Positions 1 to 9,771 of a stretch of 36,118 bases of DNA are shown piece after piece. How positions within the stretch are numbered: position 1 is the first letter of the stretch; each line of letters starts with the position of its first letter. Under the pieces are notes generated by a model. That model did no database searches. It saw only the letters and a program-made list of their open reading frames with translations, and was not told the DNA's origin. Both the position numbers and the translations under genes were made by a program. Origin of the DNA: Candidatus Abyssobacteria bacterium SURF_5 (GTDB lineage: Bacteria; Abyssobacteria; SURF-5); NCBI GenBank assembly GCA_003598085.1, contig QZKU01000012.1, forward strand, positions 1 through 36,118, written 5' to 3'.

Positions 1-345
1 CAGGTGTCTTGCAAGCTGCCGCTCACGCACACCATCTCTCCGGCGGCCGCGCACTCTCCAACTCCGCAGGAGGTTGCGGTCGGCACATACGCATCGTCGG
101 CCACCCCGTTACAGTTCTGGTCGAGCCCGTCGCAGTCGTTATCCAGACCGGTCGGCGAGCCGGCCGCGCAGGTGTCTACAAGAGAACCGGCGGAACAAAT
201 CAATTGTCCGGTAGACATGCAGAGGCCCAAGCCGCAAGTTGTGGCAGTGGGCACGTACGCTTCATCTGGAGTTCCGTCGCAGTTGTCATCGGCGCCGTCG
301 CAGTTGGAGTCATCGGCAAGCGGATTAATCGCGTCACACGCGTCG
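1..345 (-). repeat. MopE-like 168-bp tandem repeats, array 1 (cut by window edge)
   Basis: The same 56-residue unit as in the array at 1400-1990, with a boundary at 168 and the next at the window edge. Positions 1-560 align with about 1630-2189 at a constant offset of 1629 bp (543 codons). The whole block, TSP3 repeats plus MopE repeats, is therefore an internal duplication. Confidence 0.8.
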
Positions 346-3300
346 CCGATGCCGTTGGCGTTACAGTCGGCCTGATCCGGATTGTAGGCATTCGGACAAT
401 TATCGCATGCGTCACCCAAAGCGTCGCCGTCAGCGTCAGTCTGATCAGGATTCGGAGTCGCGAGGCAATTATCGAGGTCGCCGCAGACCCCGTCGCCGTC
501 GACATCGTTCAATGGATCGGTGGGGCAGATGTCGCACGCATCGCCGAACCCGTCACTGTCAGCGTCGAGTTGGTCCGCGTTTGATTCCGTTGGACAATTA
601 TCGCAGGCGTCACCGAGGCCGTCGCCAACATAACCGCCTCCACCTGATACGTAATGGTGTTGAACCACTTCCGGCGCGAGTGGCCGGTCGTAGATCGCCA
701 CTTCGTCGATCAGGCCGATATACCCGAGGATCGGGCCGGTCTGATTTATCGCGCACCCAATTCCCATCGCGGATGAGTTGTCATCCCACCAGCCGGTCCA
801 TGGGTCGGAGGCCTGCGGCACGCCGTCGATATAGAACGCCATTCCGGAGCCTCCCCAAATACCGGCCAGATGGTGCCACTGACCGTCATCCACCCTGGAA
901 AGCGATGTCAGCGTTCTGGTGGCGCTACCCGCCGAGTTTCTGATCCAGAAGAAGATCTTGCCCGCTTCCGCTGGAACGTCATACCCGCCATATATTCCAA
1001 CGGCGAACGTTGAATTCAGTTGCTGCTTTCCAATAAGATATCCGTTTCGTACGGATGTGCTCGCGTAATTCGTGGTTGTCTTGAACCACAGCTCGATGGA
1101 ACCGGTCGAAACCTCATAGGTGGAGCTGTCAGGAACCTGCACCCTGTTGGTCCCACCCGCAAAGCTCAGGGCAGAGCCGCTCCCGGCGGGCGTATCCGTG
1201 GTCCAAACCGCGCCATACAGCGTGCCGTCATTCATGCCGATCGAGTCGTCGGCGGTCGTGCCGCTGCCTTCTTCGAAAGTCCAATAGGAAGCCATGCCCT
1301 CCAGACTATCGATGTCCGCCTGATCCGGGTTCGCGACACCAGGACAGTTGTCGTAGCAATCGGCTATTCCGTCAGCATCGGTATCAAATCCGTTATCAAC
1401 TTGTCCGTCGCAATCGTTGTCCAAGCCGTCGCAGATTTCGGCGGTCGGCGAGCCGGCTATGCACGTATCTTGCAATATGCCGGCTACGCAGACCATTTCG
1501 CCGGTGGCCGCACATTCGCCTATGCCGCATGAGGTGGTGGTTGGGACATAGGCGTCATCCGCTACGCCATCGCAGTCCTGATCCAGTCCGTCGCAATCGT
1601 CATCCAGTCCGGTCGGCAAGCCGGCCACGCAGGTGTCCTGCAGCGAGCCTCCGACGCAGATCATCTCGCCAGCGGCCGCACATTCTCCAACTCCACATGA
1701 GGTCGGCGTCGGTATGTACGCGTCGTCAGCAATGCCGTTGCAGTTCTGGTCTGACCCATCGCAGTCGTCATCGAGACCAGTGGGCGAGCCGGCCACGCAG
1801 GTATCCTGCAGTGAGCCGTTTAAGCAGGCCATTTCGCCTGCAGCCGCGCATTCTCCAACTCCGCACGAGGTCGGCGTCGGTGTATACGCATCGTCCGGCA
1901 TTCCATTGCAGTTGTCATCGATTCCGTCGCAGTTGGAATCGTCCGCGAGCGGATTAATCGCGTCACACGCGTCGCCGAGGCCATTGGAGTTACAGTCGGC
2001 CTGGTCGGGATTGTAGGCTCCCGGGCAATTGTCGCAGACGTCGCCCCGACCGTCGGAATCGGAGTCAAGCTGGTTTGGGTTATTGACATCCGGGCAATTG
2101 TCGGCGTCGCCGCACAAGCCGTCGTGGTCGACGTCATTCAGCGGGTCGTTCGGACAGATATCGCACTCATCCCCCAGCCCATCGTCGTCCAGATCGGCCT
2201 GGGTGGGATTGATAGCATCGATGCAGTTGTCGCACGCATCGCCGGCGCCGTCTCCCATGAGGAACCTTACGACGCGATTTCTGCCGGAATCAGCAAGATA
2301 GACGTAATCATCGGGGTCAAGCGCTATGCCCTGCGGGTTAGAGAATGTTATCCCCGAACCGCTGTTCCATTTGGTAACGAATGCGCCATCCCGGGTAAAC
2401 ATCTGGATACGACCATTGGTGGTGTCCGCCACATACACGAAGCCGGCGGAGTCAACATCGACGTCATGTGGGTTGCGAAATTGACCGTCATTAGTCCCGT
2501 AGGAACCCCACTCTCTAATGAACGTGCCGCCGGTGGTCAGCTTCTGGATGCGATTATTGGCGGTGTCGGCTACATAGACAAAGCCGGCGCTCACTGCTAT
2601 TCCACTTGGGTAATTAAACTGGCCCGGTCCGGTTCCGGGGCCGCCCCAAGTGTCCAAAAGGTTTCCAAGGGTATCAAACTTCAGTATCTGATACCGAGTC
2701 GAGACATAGACATGATCGCTCTTGTGATCAAAGGCGATGCCGTCGCTGTCCGGATCAACCGGCCACGCCGCCTCAACAGTGTCGGTCTTGGTCAGTTTTA
2801 CAACCCGGTTATTGAAGGTATCGGTGACGTAGATGAATCCGTCGTCGCCGACGGCTACGTCGGTCGGATTATTGAAATATCCGTCGCCGGTGAACGTCTG
2901 CAAGAGGGAACCCGTCTTGGAATAGCGTCTTACCACATCATCGGCCGGGGTGGCCACGTAGACGTAGTCACCTATATCGATCCCGGCAGGGAAGGTAGTG
3001 CCGAACAGCGACACATAGACCGGCTCGGAGTCCAGTTGGTCGGGGTTCGAAACCGTCGCGCAATTATCGCAGGCGTCACCGACGGTATCGCTGTCCATGT
3101 CCGTCTGGTCCGCGTTGGCGGCGTCGGGACAGTTATCGCAGGTGTTTCCCACGCCGTCAGCGTCACTATCGACCTGGTCCGGATTCGGACGTGTCGGACA
3201 GTTGTCGCAGGCGTCGCCGACCGTATCCCCGTCGCCGTCCGCCTGGTCCGGATTGGAAACAGACACGCAGTTGTCACAGACGTCGCCCATTCCATCCAGG

Positions 3301-6300
3301 TCGCTATCGGCCTGGTCGATGTTGGGCACACCGGCGCAATTATCGCACGCATCGCCGAAATCGTCGCCATAGACTATGGTGAGTTTTGGCCGGAGCGAGA
3401 GAGTACCGTAGTTTGATGAACGGAACCAGGCATACTGGTTGTTTCCGTTATCCTCGTTCACCAGCTTGAATGAAACGAGGGAATCCGAGATGCCATAGGA
3501 GCCGGCGACAACGCTCGTCACATCGGCATACACCCACCGCGCGCCGCCGTCGTTGAGGATGGCAAGAGTCGCAACGTAACCGGTGGTATACCTGCCGGAA
3601 GGCGCCCCACCAGGCTGCAGAACGCTGCAATCGCTGCAGGGCGTCTCGTCATCCCAATGGTCATCCGACTCGGGCACGACATAGGCAGTGGTCGGCTGAG
3701 AATCATACGGCCCCGTGCCCCCGTCAAAATTGTACAGGGCAAGCGTGGCTTTCTTAATTGTCACCCCCTCCGGAAGCTGAGATATGTCGAACTTGACGAA
3801 AGACCAGTGCTCATAGTCTTCGTTATAGCCATTGTTGCGAGAAAGCAGAGCGTCATCGTTATACTTCGCGTCCGCATGGTCCTTACTGCACGTCGCCCCG
3901 CATCCCGCGGCGTAATAGCGGGCGTCATCGACCACCTCCGTTCCCGCATCCTGCAAGATGAGCGCAATTTCGCCATCGGTATTGAGCTGATCGGCGTTCG
4001 CGGTAGCCGGGCAGTTGTCGCAGATGTCTCCCACGCCGTCCGCGTCCGCGTCGGCCTGATCCGCGTTCACATCATACCGGCAGTTGTCGCACGCGTTGCC
4101 TACGGTGTCTCCATCGGTATCCGTTTGATCGGCATTCGGTACCGATGGGCAATTATCGCACGCGTCACCCACGGCGTCGGCGTCTGTATCCAGTTGATCC
4201 GCGTTCGCCTCTGCCGGGCAATTGTCGCAGGCGTCGCCGATACCATCGGCGTCAATATCCGACTGGTCCGTATTGAAAACAGTCACGCAGTTATCAGTTG
4301 CGTTACCGATCCCGTCGCCGTCGTCGTCCAGTGAACAATAGGGATGGCCGGTGCAGTCGGCGGTGTCCTGGCAGTCCACGAGCCCATCGCCGTCATTGTC
4401 GACGCCGTCGTAACAGAGTTCCATTGCGCCGGTGCAGACCGGATAGGTCGCGCAATCAGGATCATCGCAGTCCACCAGTCCGTCACCGTCATTGTCGTGC
4501 AGATCGCCGCAGTAGGTTTCAGAGGGTTCGCTGCAGATGGGCTCACTCAGACAGCCCGGATCGTCGCAGTCGATCAAGCCGTTACCGTTATCATCAATAA
4601 GGTTCCAGCAGTCGCTCTCCTCGCACACGTCGCCGACACCGTCGGCGTCGCTATCAAGCTGGTCGGGATTGCTCACCTGCGGGCAATTGTCGCAAAGGTC
4701 GCCCAGCCCGTCGAAATCGGCGTCCGCCTGATCGGGGTTCGGCGTGGCCGGGCAGTTGTCCACGTCGCCGCACACAGTGTCGGCGTCCGCGTCATTCAGC
4801 GCATCGTTCGGGCAGATATCGCATGCGTCGCCCATGCCGTCGGCGTCGGAATCGGTCTGATTGCCGGCGCAGGCGCCGCTGGCGTCCGATGAGCAGGCTT
4901 CATCAACAAATATCTCGATCCAGGAGTCCTGTCCGCCCATATCCCAGCGATACCCGAAAGCTTCGATCTGGAAGTAATAGCCGCCGGCATTGCGAGCGGG
5001 CGGCCACGCGACGGTGCGGCGGCACCATGTCCTGCCGTCCTGCCCGGTCATTGTCTCATCGCAGGCCATCGTGAGAGAAGGATACGCGCCCGATGGACAA
5101 TCACCGCTGACAATGTCGCAGTACTCATGAACGACCTCGACGCTGTCGCAACCCATCGCGTCGCACATGTGCACCGTAACGATTTCATGGAAGCGATTGT
5201 CCCATGGCGTATTGTCGGCGTTCATCCAGAAGGTGACGTATTGCGGCTGTTCGGCGAGCACCTCGAATGTCGCGATCGAGTTCTGGCACGTGGCGTAATC
5301 GCTTGTGCAATAACCGCCGTTGTCGCCGTATGCATACAGCCGAATCGAAGAAGGACCGGTGAGATAGCGGGTATAATCCGGCTCGCCGACCGATTGCGTG
5401 TTTGGCTGGCCCGCCGCGCAGTCGTAGCAGTCATTCCAGCCGCCGGTCTGCGTGCTCGAATGATAGAAGTCAGTGAACACGCCGTTCGGTGTGTTCGGGC
5501 AGTTGTCGCAGGCGTCGCCGACGCCATCACCGTCGACATCTGATTGATTCGCATTGGGTGTGGCGGCGCAGTTGTCGCAGATATCGCCGACCATATCAAG
5601 GTCGGTGTCCGTCTGATCGGCGCCGGAAACGTATGGACAGTTGTCTGAGACGTCGATAATGCCGTCGCCGTCGGTATCTATCGCGGCGCCCACGCATTCA
5701 ACATCGGTCGTGTAGCCGCGGCAAACGCTCCAGCAGGAGCCTGCGTCGGGCTGATAGCAGGCGATCGGATCGCACTGCCCGGTAAGCATGAATTCGTTCT
5801 CGCAGTTCCGGGGCATGCACATCCACATCGTGTCGTTCCAGATGCACTCATCGGGATATGAATAACAGTTCGCGCTGTCGAGCGACCCGCAATCGATTGC
5901 CCACGTGCAGTAATCTCCCTGCCACGCGCACTCGGGATCGGCCTGGCATTCACTTTGCATCCGATAATCATAACAGCCCGTCTCATAGCATTCGCCGGAT
6001 TCGGCGCCTGTGAACGAGCAGTTTGCATGGTCCATGCACTCGTAATAGTCGCTTCCCAGAGCATAGCAATCGAAGGTGTTGCACATTCCGCCGTTCCACT
6101 CGCAGCGGCTGTCCTGCTCGCAGCTTGCCTGATCGTAGTATGCCGTGCAATTGAACGGCTCGCAGTTGTTGCTTCCCCAATTCCAGTCGCACGCCGCGTC
6201 TACTTCGCAGAGATATTCGGTCGCGTACTGCCAGCAATCGGTCGCGCGACATCCATAGTTCCAGCCGCAGTCCGGCGGGATGGTCTCGCAGGCGTCGCCG

Positions 6301-9300
6301 CAGGCGGGGTTCGCGGCGTAAGGAGGCGCCGGACAACTGGCGTTGGTGTCGAGTTGGTCCGGGTTCGGCTCGAACCAGCAGTTGTCGCATACGTCGCCAA
6401 CATCGTCCATATCGGCGTCAGCCTGATTGGAATTGGCATGATTCGGACAATTGTCGACACTGTCGCTGATGCCGTCGCCGTCGGCGTCGGTGACCAGCGT
6501 TTCACAGACATTGTTATTACAATAGTTCGAGCAGCACTCTTCGTTGGTGGAGCACGTCATGCCGTCGGCGAGGCAGGTTGCTCCGGTACATTCCGCTTCG
6601 GTGGTATGGCCGTAACAGACGCTGTTACAGGCGCCCGGCTCAACCAGTTCGCATTCAGGAGACGGACAGACGCCGGTGATGTCGTATTCGGATTGGCAGC
6701 CTCCCTCGCTACAGTACATTGCCGTCGTGTTCCAGATGCAATTCGTATCTGAATCACATTCGAATTGAGAGGCATGGGAATAGCATGGGACCGAGGGATT
6801 GCACCAGCGGCCATCCCATACGCAACCGAGGGGACTGGCAAGGCAGTCGGCTTCATTATAGTTGAGCACGCACTGAGGAACGTTGCAGAAGCCGTCTTCC
6901 CTGGATTCGAACTCGCACAGCGCGTGCGCTTGGCACGCCGCCTGATCGTGTTCGTACCCGTAGCAGTTGACGGTCTCGCACATTTCGTTTCGCCACTGGC
7001 AGTTTGCGCCGGGCGCGCTTTCGCAACTGAATTGGTCGGTGTGCTCCCAGCACCGGTATTCGTAACACTCGCCCATCATGGAATCCCACGAGCAGCCGGG
7101 ATCATTCTCGCACCCGATCTGGTCGCCGTAGTACATCCCGAAGCAATCTTTCTGCCGGCAACCCCAGTACCAGTCGCAGTCGGAGGCCGGCGCGCCCTCA
7201 CAGGCGTCGCCGCACGCGGGGTCGGAACTGTATGGTGGGGCTGGACAGTTCGAGTTAGAATCGGCCTGAGAGGGATTGGGTGTTGTCCGGCAGTTGTCGC
7301 AGGCGTCGCCGACGCCATCGCCGTCCCCGTCCACCTGCGTCGGGTTCGCGACATCCGGACAGTTGTCGGTCGCGTTCGTCGCGCCATCGCCGTCCGAATC
7401 GAGCGCGCAGTAAGGATGGCCGGCGCAATCAGGGTAATCGTCGCAATCAATAAAGCTGTCGCTGTCGTTATCCACTCCGTCGTAGCAAAGCTCCATCGAA
7501 CCTGCGCACACAGGGTATGAATAGCAGTCGGGATCGCCACAGTCCGTCAGGCCATCGCGGTCGTTGTCGTTCATATCGCCGCAGGATATTTCAGGAGATT
7601 CACTGCAGAGGGGGCCGATCCAGCAATCGGAGTCGCCGCAGTCGACCTGCCCGTCGCCATCATCATCCACCAGATTCGAGCAATCGGTTTCGGCGGAAGG
7701 GGCGCCGCCTGTGCAGGCGCTTTCCGTACCGTACGTCGAGCAGACACTGACGCAATTCATGCCGTCCCACGAGCATTCGGGATGGGAATTGCATTCCGCT
7801 TCGTACATGAACGTCGGACAGGTAAACGTCCACGTGCAAACCATGCCGTCCCACGAACAGAGCGAATTCGCGCTGCATTGTTCCTGAGTCGGGTAATCCT
7901 CGCACGGCTTCTCCCAGCACGACCCTTCGGCGCTCGGCCTGAATGCGCAGTTCGCGTGCTGCGAACAGGCTATCTGGTCGGTTCCCAAGCCCTCGCACGG
8001 AAACGGGCCGCAGTAGGAGCCGTACCACTGGCACCTGCTATCGGAATCGCACGACATCTGGTCGTAATACATCGAGCAGGCGTCCTGATTCATGCACATC
8101 ATATACATGTAGTCCCAATAGCACATGGAATTACTGTTGCAACTCATCTCGTCGTAGAAAGACGAACAGTTGATCTGCTCGCACCCGTAACGCCATTCGC
8201 AGGGATTGGCGCCTGCGCCTCCCTCGCACGCGTCGCCGCAGAGCGGATCGGAAGAATAGGGCGGGGGAGGACAGTTCGAGTTCGAATCCAACTGGTCCAC
8301 GTTGGCGACATACCAGCAGTTATCACAGTCATTTCCAACGCAATCGGCATCGGCGTCGGCCTGATCGGGATTCCCGTAAGACATGCAGCTATCGCACAGA
8401 TCACCGATTCCGTCGGTGTCCGTATCCTCCTGCGCAGGATTGGAAACTTCGGGACAATTATCCGATGCATCCGGTACCCCGTCGCCGTCGCCATCCACGG
8501 CACCACCCATCTGAACCAGTTCGACATCATCGATCAGAATATGGACCGGGTCCGGCTCTCCGCAGGAGCCCGCATATGCGAGCTGGAATATGAGTTCCAT
8601 ATATCGCCCTACGAACGGGGTCAGATCGAATTCATGACGCTGCCAATCCCATGAGCCGCCCTCTGCGGAAAACACTGTGGTATCGTTGACAACGCCGCCG
8701 TTTGTGTAATCCCTCAGGAGCACCTGGAATGTGAAGGGAGCACCATAGATTGACTTTGTCCAAAAAGCCAATTTGTCGATGTTGGAGGGAACGATAAACC
8801 GCTGTCTGATCCGCGCATCATTGCAGGTAATGGGCAGATAGAGCTCGGCCGCGTAAGTGCCTGAATGGGGAGGACCTGAAAGCTGCGCATACCCGGCTCC
8901 GCTTTCGTATGACGACCATTGCTCCAGCGTTCCCGTCTCGAAGTCGCCATTGTGGATTCTGGGTGCAATCTCGTTGCAACTCTTAACGGAAACTTCATCT
9001 ATGTAGAGGTCCCGGCTGAAAAACTCGGAGCACGTGCCGAAATTCGAAAATTCAATAGTAATCTCAACATCATGACCGGTCAGATAATCGATATACCATT
9101 TCTTCTGCACCCAGCCTTCAGACTGAACAATGTAAAAATCCTGGTGCAGATACACAACATCTTCCACAAAATCGCCCCAGCCGGAGAAATCGACCAGGTT
9201 GCTGTAGTCCTTCAGAGACACCGTTATCGCAACAGAACTCGTATCACTCTGCTCTTTTCGCATCCAGAACGAAAACTCCGCATTATCGGGAATAATCAGA

Positions 9301-9563
9301 CGCTGCCTCAGGGTCACGCTTTCGCAATACTTGTCGAAGTGCAGTCGCGCGGCATAGCTCCCGCCTTTGACAATGCCGGAGTCGACGCTCGCGCTTGCAT
9401 TCGCCGAAGCGTCGACACTCCACCCCGTCAAATCACCGCTTTCGAACCCTCCGTTCACGGTAAATTCGTCCGCCTGACCAGTCGCCGGAAAAAGCGCCAG
9501 ACCGGCCAAAACTGCCAGCACCAACAAAGCCCCGCTCATCCGCACAGAATGTGCCCTCTTCAT
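1..9563 (-). CDS. Giant secreted multidomain protein with TSP3-like and MopE-like repeats (partial, 3' end outside window)
   Basis: One frame stays open from an ATG at 9563 to the left edge, about 3187 codons with no stop seen. I checked that the recurrent 'GDACDNC' motif keeps the same phase near 640, 2230, 4230, 6290 and 8230. A Shine-Dalgarno AAAGGAC lies just upstream of the ATG. The N-terminus is basic (MKRAH) then hydrophobic (LLVLAVLAGLAL), a signal peptide ending near TGQA-DE. Approximate domain order by residue: two beta-sandwich-like domains (32-352); acidic DxDxDGxGDxCDNCP repeats throughout; three Cys/Trp-rich modules (448-1290); a Cys-poor beta domain (1359-1568); DNRLRE-like (1867-2063); NHL-like propeller (2185-2438); MopE-like repeats (2524-2720); LamG-like (2743-2974); MopE-like repeats again to the edge. 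The repeats suggest a calcium-loaded, disulphide-rich cell-surface or extracellular protein. The function is unknown and the C-terminal anchor is not visible. Confidence 0.9.
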   Translation of the reverse strand, partial: MKRAHSVRMSGALLVLAVLAGLALFPATGQADEFTVNGGFESGDLTGWSVDASANASASVDSGIVKGGSYAARLHFDKYCESVTLRQRLIIPDNAEFSFWMRKEQSDTSSVAITVSLKDYSNLVDFSGWGDFVEDVVYLHQDFYIVQSEGWVQKKWYIDYLTGHDVEITIEFSNFGTCSEFFSRDLYIDEVSVKSCNEIAPRIHNGDFETGTLEQWSSYESGAGYAQLSGPPHSGTYAAELYLPITCNDARIRQRFIVPSNIDKLAFWTKSIYGAPFTFQVLLRDYTNGGVVNDTTVFSAEGGSWDWQRHEFDLTPFVGRYMELIFQLAYAGSCGEPDPVHILIDDVELVQMGGAVDGDGDGVPDASDNCPEVSNPAQEDTDTDGIGDLCDSCMSYGNPDQADADADCVGNDCDNCWYVANVDQLDSNSNCPPPPYSSDPLCGDACEGGAGANPCEWRYGCEQINCSSFYDEMSCNSNSMCYWDYMYMMCMNQDACSMYYDQMSCDSDSRCQWYGSYCGPFPCEGLGTDQIACSQHANCAFRPSAEGSCWEKPCEDYPTQEQCSANSLCSWDGMVCTWTFTCPTFMYEAECNSHPECSWDGMNCVSVCSTYGTESACTGGAPSAETDCSNLVDDDGDGQVDCGDSDCWIGPLCSESPEISCGDMNDNDRDGLTDCGDPDCYSYPVCAGSMELCYDGVDNDSDSFIDCDDYPDCAGHPYCALDSDGDGATNATDNCPDVANPTQVDGDGDGVGDACDNCRTTPNPSQADSNSNCPAPPYSSDPACGDACEGAPASDCDWYWGCRQKDCFGMYYGDQIGCENDPGCSWDSMMGECYEYRCWEHTDQFSCESAPGANCQWRNEMCETVNCYGYEHDQAACQAHALCEFESREDGFCNVPQCVLNYNEADCLASPLGCVWDGRWCNPSVPCYSHASQFECDSDTNCIWNTTAMYCSEGGCQSEYDITGVCPSPECELVEPGACNSVCYGHTTEAECTGATCLADGMTCSTNEECCSNYCNNNVCETLVTDADGDGISDSVDNCPNHANSNQADADMDDVGDVCDNCWFEPNPDQLDTNASCPAPPYAANPACGDACETIPPDCGWNYGCRATDCWQYATEYLCEVDAACDWNWGSNNCEPFNCTAYYDQASCEQDSRCEWNGGMCNTFDCYALGSDYYECMDHANCSFTGAESGECYETGCYDYRMQSECQADPECAWQGDYCTWAIDCGSLDSANCYSYPDECIWNDTMWMCMPRNCENEFMLTGQCDPIACYQPDAGSCWSVCRGYTTDVECVGAAIDTDGDGIIDVSDNCPYVSGADQTDTDLDMVGDICDNCAATPNANQSDVDGDGVGDACDNCPNTPNGVFTDFYHSSTQTGGWNDCYDCAAGQPNTQSVGEPDYTRYLTGPSSIRLYAYGDNGGYCTSDYATCQNSIATFEVLAEQPQYVTFWMNADNTPWDNRFHEIVTVHMCDAMGCDSVEVVHEYCDIVSGDCPSGAYPSLTMACDETMTGQDGRTWCRRTVAWPPARNAGGYYFQIEAFGYRWDMGGQDSWIEIFVDEACSSDASGACAGNQTDSDADGMGDACDICPNDALNDADADTVCGDVDNCPATPNPDQADADFDGLGDLCDNCPQVSNPDQLDSDADGVGDVCEESDCWNLIDDNGNGLIDCDDPGCLSEPICSEPSETYCGDLHDNDGDGLVDCDDPDCATYPVCTGAMELCYDGVDNDGDGLVDCQDTADCTGHPYCSLDDDGDGIGNATDNCVTVFNTDQSDIDADGIGDACDNCPAEANADQLDTDADAVGDACDNCPSVPNADQTDTDGDTVGNACDNCRYDVNADQADADADGVGDICDNCPATANADQLNTDGEIALILQDAGTEVVDDARYYAAGCGATCSKDHADAKYNDDALLSRNNGYNEDYEHWSFVKFDISQLPEGVTIKKATLALYNFDGGTGPYDSQPTTAYVVPESDDHWDDETPCSDCSVLQPGGAPSGRYTTGYVATLAILNDGGARWVYADVTSVVAGSYGISDSLVSFKLVNEDNGNNQYAWFRSSNYGTLSLRPKLTIVYGDDFGDACDNCAGVPNIDQADSDLDGMGDVCDNCVSVSNPDQADGDGDTVGDACDNCPTRPNPDQVDSDADGVGNTCDNCPDAANADQTDMDSDTVGDACDNCATVSNPDQLDSEPVYVSLFGTTFPAGIDIGDYVYVATPADDVVRRYSKTGSLLQTFTGDGYFNNPTDVAVGDDGFIYVTDTFNNRVVKLTKTDTVEAAWPVDPDSDGIAFDHKSDHVYVSTRYQILKFDTLGNLLDTWGGPGTGPGQFNYPSGIAVSAGFVYVADTANNRIQKLTTGGTFIREWGSYGTNDGQFRNPHDVDVDSAGFVYVADTTNGRIQMFTRDGAFVTKWNSGSGITFSNPQGIALDPDDYVYLADSGRNRVVRFLMGDGAGDACDNCIDAINPTQADLDDDGLGDECDICPNDPLNDVDHDGLCGDADNCPDVNNPNQLDSDSDGRGDVCDNCPGAYNPDQADCNSNGLGDACDAINPLADDSNCDGIDDNCNGMPDDAYTPTPTSCGVGECAAAGEMACLNGSLQDTCVAGSPTGLDDDCDGSDQNCNGIADDAYIPTPTSCGVGECAAAGEMICVGGSLQDTCVAGLPTGLDDDCDGLDQDCDGVADDAYVPTTTSCGIGECAATGEMVCVAGILQDTCIAGSPTAEICDGLDNDCDGQVDNGFDTDADGIADCYDNCPGVANPDQADIDSLEGMASYWTFEEGSGTTADDSIGMNDGTLYGAVWTTDTPAGSGSALSFAGGTNRVQVPDSSTYEVSTGSIELWFKTTTNYASTSVRNGYLIGKQQLNSTFAVGIYGGYDVPAEAGKIFFWIRNSAGSATRTLTSLSRVDDGQWHHLAGIWGGSGMAFYIDGVPQASDPWTGWWDDNSSAMGIGCAINQTGPILGYIGLIDEVAIYDRPLAPEVVQHHYVSGGGGYVGDGLGDACDNCPTESNADQLDADSDGFGDACDICPTDPLNDVDGDGVCGDLDNCLATPNPDQTDADGDALGDACDNCPNAYNPDQADCNANGIGDACDAINPLADDSNCDGADDNCDGTPDEAYVPTATTCGLGLCMSTGQLICSAGSLVDTCAAGSPTGLDNDCDGLDQNCNGVADDAYVPTATSCGVGECAAAGEMVCVSGSLQDT
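640..1335 (-). other. LamG-like (concanavalin-fold) domain within giant protein
   Basis: The domain starts with ASYWTFEEGSGTTADDSIGM and contains NDGTLYGAVW, STYEVSTGSIELWFKT, WHHLAGIWGGSGMAFYIDG and GYIGLIDEVAIYDRPLAPEV. This is the standard order of motifs for LamG-like jelly-roll domains (Laminin_G_3 type). It lies between MopE array 2 and the last visible TSP3-like block. Confidence 0.85.
1400..1990 (-). repeat. MopE-like 168-bp tandem repeats, array 2
   Basis: Tandem units of 168 bp (56 residues) begin at 1461, 1629 and 1797. Each encodes CDG(x)DxxCxGxxDDAY, then PTxTSCGxGECAAxGEMxC, then LQDTCxAGxPT. The CDGxDNDCDGxxD core matches the putative metal-binding motif described for MopE-type surface proteins. 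The closing segment CDGLDNDCDGQVDNGF is a textbook match. Confidence 0.8.
2250..3010 (-). other. NHL-repeat beta-propeller within giant protein
   Basis: At least five blades are visible with the NHL pattern 'P-x-gI/dV-A-v-d-x-x-G-x-v-Y-V-a-D-t-x-N-n-R-I-q-k'. Examples are NPTDVAVGDDGFIYVTDTFN, YPSGIAVSAGFVYVADTANN and NPHDVDVDSAGFVYVADTTN. The propeller sits between two TSP3-like blocks and may serve as a binding platform. Confidence 0.85.
3378..3965 (-). other. DNRLRE-like (CBM96-type) domain within giant protein
   Basis: About 195 residues free of the DxDxDG motif interrupt the repeats. Diagnostic stretches are LQDAGTEVVDDARYY near the start, then WSFVKFDISQLPEGVTIKKA, LALYNF, and a closing NYGTLSLRPKLTIVYGDD. 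The core 'FKFDLSxLPxGaxIxxAxLxLY' with a 'RPxLxVxY' ending is the hallmark of DNRLRE-type domains of secreted bacterial proteins. Confidence 0.7.
5690..6290 (-). repeat. Cys/Trp-rich module 3 of giant protein
   Basis: This is the third copy, introduced by PPYAANPACGDACETIP and starting near CGWNYGCRATDC. It closes with a CxSVCRGYTTDVEC segment that matches the end of module 2 (NSVCYGHTTEAEC). The three modules sit about 1.0 kb and 0.9 kb apart, separated by TSP3-like repeats. Confidence 0.6.
6510..7195 (-). repeat. Cys/Trp-rich module 2 of giant protein
   Basis: This is the second copy of the module, introduced by PPYSSDPACGDACEGAP and starting near CDWYWGCRQKDC. It contains several CxxxxxxQxxCxxxxxCxW units. 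It ends with a cluster reading CCSNYCNNNVCET, after which TSP3-like repeats resume. Confidence 0.6.
7690..8225 (-). repeat. Cys/Trp-rich module 1 of giant protein
   Basis: This module holds about 180 residues of short repeated units with the pattern C-x(3-8)-Q/E-x-x-C-x(4-6)-C-x-W-x(3-6)-C, for example YDEMSCNSNSMCYWDYM. It is preceded by a PPYSSDPLCGDACEGG linker. It resembles the cysteine-rich PSI-like repeats found in some secreted proteins. The same module recurs twice further along the protein, each time after a PPYxxxPxCGDACE linker. Confidence 0.6.
8510..9470 (-). other. Two N-terminal beta-sandwich (carbohydrate-binding-like) domains of the giant protein
   Basis: The mature N-terminus has two consecutive domains of similar pattern. 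Each begins with an NGxFExGxLxxW motif (FTVNGGFESGDLTGW at about residue 36, HNGDFETGTLEQW at about residue 207) and each ends in an IDxVxL/V strand. The central part of both reads like a jelly roll (RQRxIVPxN, then FW). This start and end pattern is common in CBM-like domains of secreted bacterial proteins. The assignment is by pattern only and no ligand can be inferred. Confidence 0.55.
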
Positions 9564-9611
9564 TGAAGGTGTCCTTTCAGAAAAAGCTGTATGGAGTCCA
9601 AAAAAGGAAAA

Positions 9612-9634
9612 GGCGCGGTTTGAAATGCCGCGCC
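9612..9634. repeat. GC-rich 7-bp hairpin close to the giant gene start
   Basis: GGCGCGG at 9612-9618 pairs with CCGCGCC at 9628-9634 across a 9-nt loop. On the minus strand it is followed by an A/T-rich run (CTTTTCCTTTTT) before the ribosome-binding site. It therefore resembles a leader terminator or attenuator about 50 nt ahead of the start codon. Confidence 0.5.
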
Positions 9635-9771
9635 ACAAGTTCCGAAATTATTTAACAGCCTGCTGCTGAAGAACCTTGATATTGGCCGACGGGCGAAAGA
9701 TAATCGGAAGGAGAAGAAAGATCCCGCCCCTTGCCGGAATCCGCCCTTCGCTGATAAAATACGATAAGCTG

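Follow-up and report, generated by a model that had tools for sequence, protein, structure and literature searches.

The window analyzed here, i.e., the whole stretch of DNA under study, corresponds to the entire contig C12 (36118 bp) of a 5.1-Mb draft genome (G000) from a poorly known bacterial lineage. At its left end, a single minus-strand frame is open for 3212 codons (ORF reading, window 3-9638) and runs off the contig, its stop lying beyond the contig edge. The likeliest start is the ATG at 9563, with a Shine-Dalgarno-like GAAAGGA upstream, leaving 3187 codons that begin with the signal peptide MKRAHSVRMSGALLVLAVLAGLALFPATGQA; the single open frame and signal peptide reported by the first-pass annotation were thus borne out. 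The product contains 237 Cys and 445 Asp in about 3200 residues. To the right of this giant gene begins a divergent flagellar cluster (FlgF/G, FlgA, FlgH, FlgI, FlgN, FlgK, and flagellin/FlgL-like), beyond which lie genes for signalling and Trk-type potassium transport; the synteny check revealed no TSP3 giant alongside the flagellar cluster of G001, a genome of the same taxonomic family. Two ORFs that belong to no Pfam family lie at the right end of the contig (window 34554-36043), in a stretch whose G+C content is clearly lower (44%).

The giant is a TSP3-repeat protein of about 20 units (Table 1): Pfam TSP_3 (PF02412) matches it at 8e-42 (141 bits, 17 stretches), with many single matches above 25 bits and multiple matches exceeding the curated cut-off. 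Pfam NHL (4e-29), Laminin_G_3, the MopE-type motif, and NCBIfam acid_disulf_rpt (3e-28) were also detected, and CBM96 and NCBIfam DNRLRE recognize the same domain. Together with the repeat analysis, these searches recovered all the parts listed earlier, i.e., TSP3, MopE-like, DNRLRE, NHL, and LamG domains and three Cys/Trp modules; no catalytic domain was seen in the giant. The MtsC cell-cohesion model (NF047638) reaches 397.7 bits for a cut-off of 350, a score summed over 14 stretches within the TSP3 repeats of a protein whose C terminus lies outside the window.

Table 1. Features of the giant gene, with the evidence for each
Feature	Position	Strand	Basis
Giant secreted mosaic protein	3..9563	-	3187 codons from ATG 9563; 3' end beyond contig
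Signal peptide MKRAHSVRMSGALLVLAVLAGLALFPATGQA	9468..9563	-	Typical; read from sequence by eye
Two CBM_4_9-like beta-sandwich domains (res 58-222, 226-378)	8505..9467	-	Pfam CBM_4_9 1.1e-5 (at cut-off) and 1.5e-3
Cys/Trp module 1	7704..8198	-	Repeat pattern and profile
Acidic double-disulfide repeats	7407..7682	-	NCBIfam NF033662
Cys/Trp module 2	6510..7190	-	Repeat pattern and profile
Cys/Trp module 3	5685..6284	-	Repeat pattern and profile
Nested domain without known family (res 1387-1590)	4869..5480	-	Unit split at 9/10, CPNTPNG/../NQTDSDADGMGDACD; Pfam: TSP3 only
Acidic double-disulfide repeats	4329..4619	-	NCBIfam NF033662, best stretch res 1704-1735
TSP3 unit hosting DNRLRE, left half CDNCPATANADQLNTD	3975..4022	-	TSP3 register
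Nested DNRLRE/CBM96 domain	3369..3974	-	NF033679 1.2e-16, PF24517 1.5e-9
TSP3 unit hosting DNRLRE, right half GDDFGDA	3348..3368	-	TSP3 register
TSP3 unit hosting NHL, left half CDNCATVSNPDQLDSE	3024..3071	-	TSP3 register
Nested NHL six-bladed beta-propeller	2256..3023	-	Pfam NHL; AlphaFold2; Foldseek
TSP3 unit hosting NHL, right half GDGAGDA	2235..2255	-	TSP3 register
MopE-type Cys repeats, array 1	1428..1961	-	PF11617 1.4e-8
TSP3 unit hosting LamG, left half YDNCPGVANPDQADID	1308..1355	-	Half-unit search
Nested LamG (Laminin_G_3) domain	627..1307	-	PF13385 3.9e-20; same nesting in G001 L076/L093
TSP3 unit hosting LamG, right half GDGLGDA	606..626	-	TSP3 register
MopE-type repeats, array 2, cut by contig end	3..329	-	Most similar to array opening contig C117

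When the repeats are read in the TSP3 register, with units numbered 1 to 23 from CDNC, three domains of the window sit within single 23-residue units whose two halves are complementary, at the junctions CDNCPATANADQLNTD/DNRLRE/GDDFGDACDNC, CDNCATVSNPDQLDSE/NHL/GDGAGDACDNC, and YDNCPGVANPDQADID/LamG/GDGLGDACDNC. The split falls in the calcium loop, after the second Asp of DxDxDG (position 16) and before the third (position 18). The DNRLRE, NHL, and LamG domains, which the first-pass annotation had placed in line with the TSP3 repeats, are therefore each nested inside one unit, and linear domain listings, that one included, miss the discontinuous host repeat. A fourth nested domain (residues 1387 to 1590) splits its unit elsewhere, at position 9/10.

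Insert edges were mapped in 57 TSP3 ORFs with a position-specific score built from 195 intact units, considering inserts of at least 60 residues between intact units. Right edges fell 28 times at 17/18, 22 times at 13/14, where ordinary arrays start, and 5 times elsewhere, while left edges peaked at 1-2, where arrays normally end, and at 13-17. A targeted search for complementary half-units retrieved 31 nested units. They come from six genomes, with 3 in that of the window, 7 and 2 in the same-family genomes G001 and G002, 11 in the Deltaproteobacteria MAG AB_03_Bin_195 (G291), 5 in Deltaproteobacteria RIFOXYA12_FULL_58_15 (G293), and 3 in the Lentisphaeria MAG SW_4_46 (G292). The G292 contig (L070) is probably misbinned, since most of it aligns with the G291 contig (L069) at 88-94% identity. 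Among the 31 nested units, position 14 is D, N, or E in all, position 16 is D or E in 30, and position 18 is D in all; these counts depend in part on the search for half-units, which does not apply to the edge histogram. Five unrelated insert types occupy the split: NHL, LamG, DNRLRE, a BNR-like propeller of about 450 aa, and a 110-130 aa domain without Pfam family. The latter (L069, L071, L102, and L105) has conserved Cys, matches no NCBIfam family either, and occurred here solely as a TSP3-nested insert. No nesting was found in the TSP3-rich genomes G059, G242, G044, and G043 (71, 48, 52, and 21 intact units, respectively), nor any edge at 16-18 in 17 genomes of the phylum of G293 (225 intact units, 29 insert gaps). 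Nesting is thus recurrent but restricted, and the existence of TSP3-rich proteins without it implies that a TSP3 stalk can do without it.

By similarity, the nested NHL copies group together, and so do the 110-130 aa inserts. Over most of the domain, identity among the nested NHLs of the window, L078, and L079 is 36-44%, compared with about 28-30% in full-length alignments between nested NHLs and those appended after complete TSP3 units, as found in L073 (G001) and L078 (G002). Moreover, the nested LamG of G001 (L076/L093) aligns to that of the window with 41% identity across both half-units. From these similarities, a nested cassette appears to travel with its socket, and different domain families appear to have reached the socket separately.

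Single-sequence AlphaFold2 prediction of the window TSP3[NHL]TSP3 segment gave a propeller for the insert, with blocks mostly at pLDDT 71-93, and the best Foldseek matches of this model were NHL propellers (E, 2e-21). In a 210-residue construct, the 110-130 aa insert was predicted to fold over residues 44-155, precisely the extent of the insert; Foldseek found no PDB match for it at E <= 0.001, the best being BfrC (8e-3). The TSP3 flanks were modelled with confidence below 50, so it is from the compact insert folds that we infer the closing of the split loop around the insert base.

To our knowledge, the TSP3 units described so far are uninterrupted. The giant shares with the TSP3 repeats (PF02412) of animal thrombospondins/COMP and of bacterial OmpA/TraB linkers the 23-residue units, the DxDxDG..GD.C motifs, and the Cys pairs, but it departs from them in that single units are split by whole domains of 100-450 aa. 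Its TSP3 units keep the calcium-ligand and Cys positions, and calcium binding is predicted. Giant extracellular proteins of uncultured bacteria were reportedly the subject of a 2023 preprint by West-Roberts (cited in PMC12057145). Those of PVC and other bacteria resemble the giant in their thousands of residues, secretion, carbohydrate-binding modules, and TSP3 repeats, but differ in domain set, and the passages concerned describe no nesting (PMC12057145). For bacterial TSP3, the OmpA structure is referred to as having an intra-repeat disulfide (Dai et al. 2017, cited in PMC12045341). The TSP3/cadherin enzymes of Saccharophagus are likewise secreted and modular with TSP3 calcium motifs, but they are glycanases (PMC2386152), whereas no such catalytic domain was seen in the giant. 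We rejected the MopE copper protein of Methylococcus, whose copper site consists of two His and a kynurenine (PMC3423442), as a counterpart: only the short PF11617 motif matches, and the arrays (residues 2560-2737 and 3104-3212) have no His. Full-text literature searches, covering few subscription journals, turned up no account of TSP3 units with domains nested in them. The nesting itself is evident from the sequences; what is new is its occurrence at one calcium-loop position, with several unrelated inserts and predicted ligand residues kept.

We propose that the giant is probably a Sec-secreted, calcium-loaded stalk on which TSP3 sockets clamp pendant binding domains sideways, likely for adhesion or polymer capture. 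Following export via Sec by means of its signal peptide, the tandem TSP3 units would form a stiff, calcium-loaded, disulfide-stapled wire, in which some units would serve as sockets holding a complete folded domain, inserted after the second Asp of DxDxDG and before the third. Because of this insertion point, both ends of the insert would enter and leave via one calcium site; calcium, once bound, would then clamp each pendant domain at its base and hold it sideways with the wire unbroken. The inserts, along with the CBM-like domains at the N terminus, the Cys/Trp modules, and the MopE-type arrays, could make up a long surface or matrix protein with several carbohydrate- or protein-binding heads, for which adhesion or polymer capture would be the likeliest use. 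The earlier reading as a calcium-stabilised surface filament or adhesin holds in that a secreted, calcium-stabilised, probably adhesive stalk is the best interpretation, but nothing was found to support a defined surface system. More generally, and at slightly less than even chances, some bacterial TSP3 units might be dedicated insertion sockets that accept unrelated folded domains at one exact position with a calcium-dependent clamp, in-register cassettes adding pendant heads to giant stalks. Should the clamp prove real, nature would offer a reusable way of grafting domains into a calcium repeat that stays intact. Protein design could draw on it, and it would help to explain how new functions are acquired by giant surface proteins of bacteria.

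An ordinary bead-on-string mosaic, whose domains would simply occupy regular linkers separating TSP3 half-motifs, without structural significance of the exact position, is in our opinion unlikely. Half-motifs do build TSP3 arrays, and the appended NHLs of L073 and L078 show that, within the same taxonomic family, other NHL domains follow a complete unit. However, ordinary array edges lie at 1-2 and 13-14 whereas nested edges lie at 16/17-18, inside the DxDxDG loop; the nested halves are complementary and keep their Asp ligands, and none of the 29 gaps of other TSP3-rich genomes has such an edge. An assembly chimera, with repeat-rich contigs misjoined inside TSP3 DNA, could be suspected from the repeat array that ends contig C12 and from the further contig ends in MopE arrays (C66 and C117), but it is highly improbable and was rejected, as in-frame nesting recurs at the same position in independent assemblies and the nested LamG is homologous across both junctions in G001.

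A more serious possibility, albeit one we would still bet against, is that repetitive TSP3 DNA is a recombination hotspot through which cassettes spread by homology without functional advantage. The single similarity groups of the nested NHLs and of the 110-130 aa inserts are what one would expect to see if cassettes, along with their half-unit flanks, were recombined into further arrays. Nevertheless, at least five unrelated domain types at the same site and the kept ligand residues suggest selection. Such spread can coexist with the socket explanation, as an account of origin and not of function.

The giant secreted mosaic as such is ordinary for its lineage: the family often has TSP3 ORFs of such size (in G001, 5026, 2806, and 2193 aa; in G002, 3810 aa), and the longest of each genome, L073 and L078, exceed that of the window. 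The comparison of domain order with homologues, as the first-pass annotation had suggested, found the same order neither in these two genomes nor in about 95 others (orthologue search). Its remark that it knows of no described protein with this exact order is uninformative, since domain order shuffles freely in such proteins; what sets the giant apart is the nesting. A conserved order with a C-terminal anchor was not supported either, the Cys/Trp modules being absent from G001 and G002 and an anchor from C117. Leftward extension of the contig was tried, and no exact overlap extending the giant gene was found among the G000 contigs. Two more contig ends lie inside MopE-type arrays, those of C117 (L037, L146) and C66 (L036); one is probably the rest of the giant and the other belongs to another giant with its start missing or on another contig. 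The array opening C117 is the most similar to the one closing C12 (repeat-unit DNA identity up to 0.82 versus 0.75 for C66), and C117 is the best candidate; it would lengthen the protein by 626 residues and closes with a TSP3-like tail that shows no anchor. The alternative is C66, which ends like the complete nested-LamG protein L076 of G001, so the C12-C117 join is a tentative one. Pfam detected no C-terminal anchor domain (sorting tail, OmpA, or other) on these two candidates for a C terminus that lies off contig C12, and no MYXO-CTERM tail was visible by eye on C117.

Identity to the first Cys/Trp module is 36-42% for the second and third, and the repeat pattern of the modules was reached in 0 of 2000 shuffles. 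None of the three has a significant Pfam match; scanning the genome collection with them gave TSP3 matches only, nested deltaproteobacterial proteins among them, and the viral scan gave nothing. A profile of the three modules retrieved long arrays of C-x(5-9)-C-x(4-6)-C-x-W-x(3-8)-C in 3 of 385 other genomes sampled (G121, G388, and G258). The Paramecium surface antigen (PF01508) has a similar Cys spacing, but membership of the window modules was rejected for want of a match over the curated cut-off. Among the arrays of the three genomes, only that of G258 matches this family (5.7e-15), the others having no significant Pfam match, and the per-match scores in genomes are below the family cut-off; the putative link to the Paramecium antigen is thus a lead only. 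The proteins concerned (L178 and L179 in G121, L180 and L181 in G388, and L183 in G258) are largely Cys/Trp repeat, with up to 61 copies in one frame, and the G258 array consists of near-identical 31-aa units.
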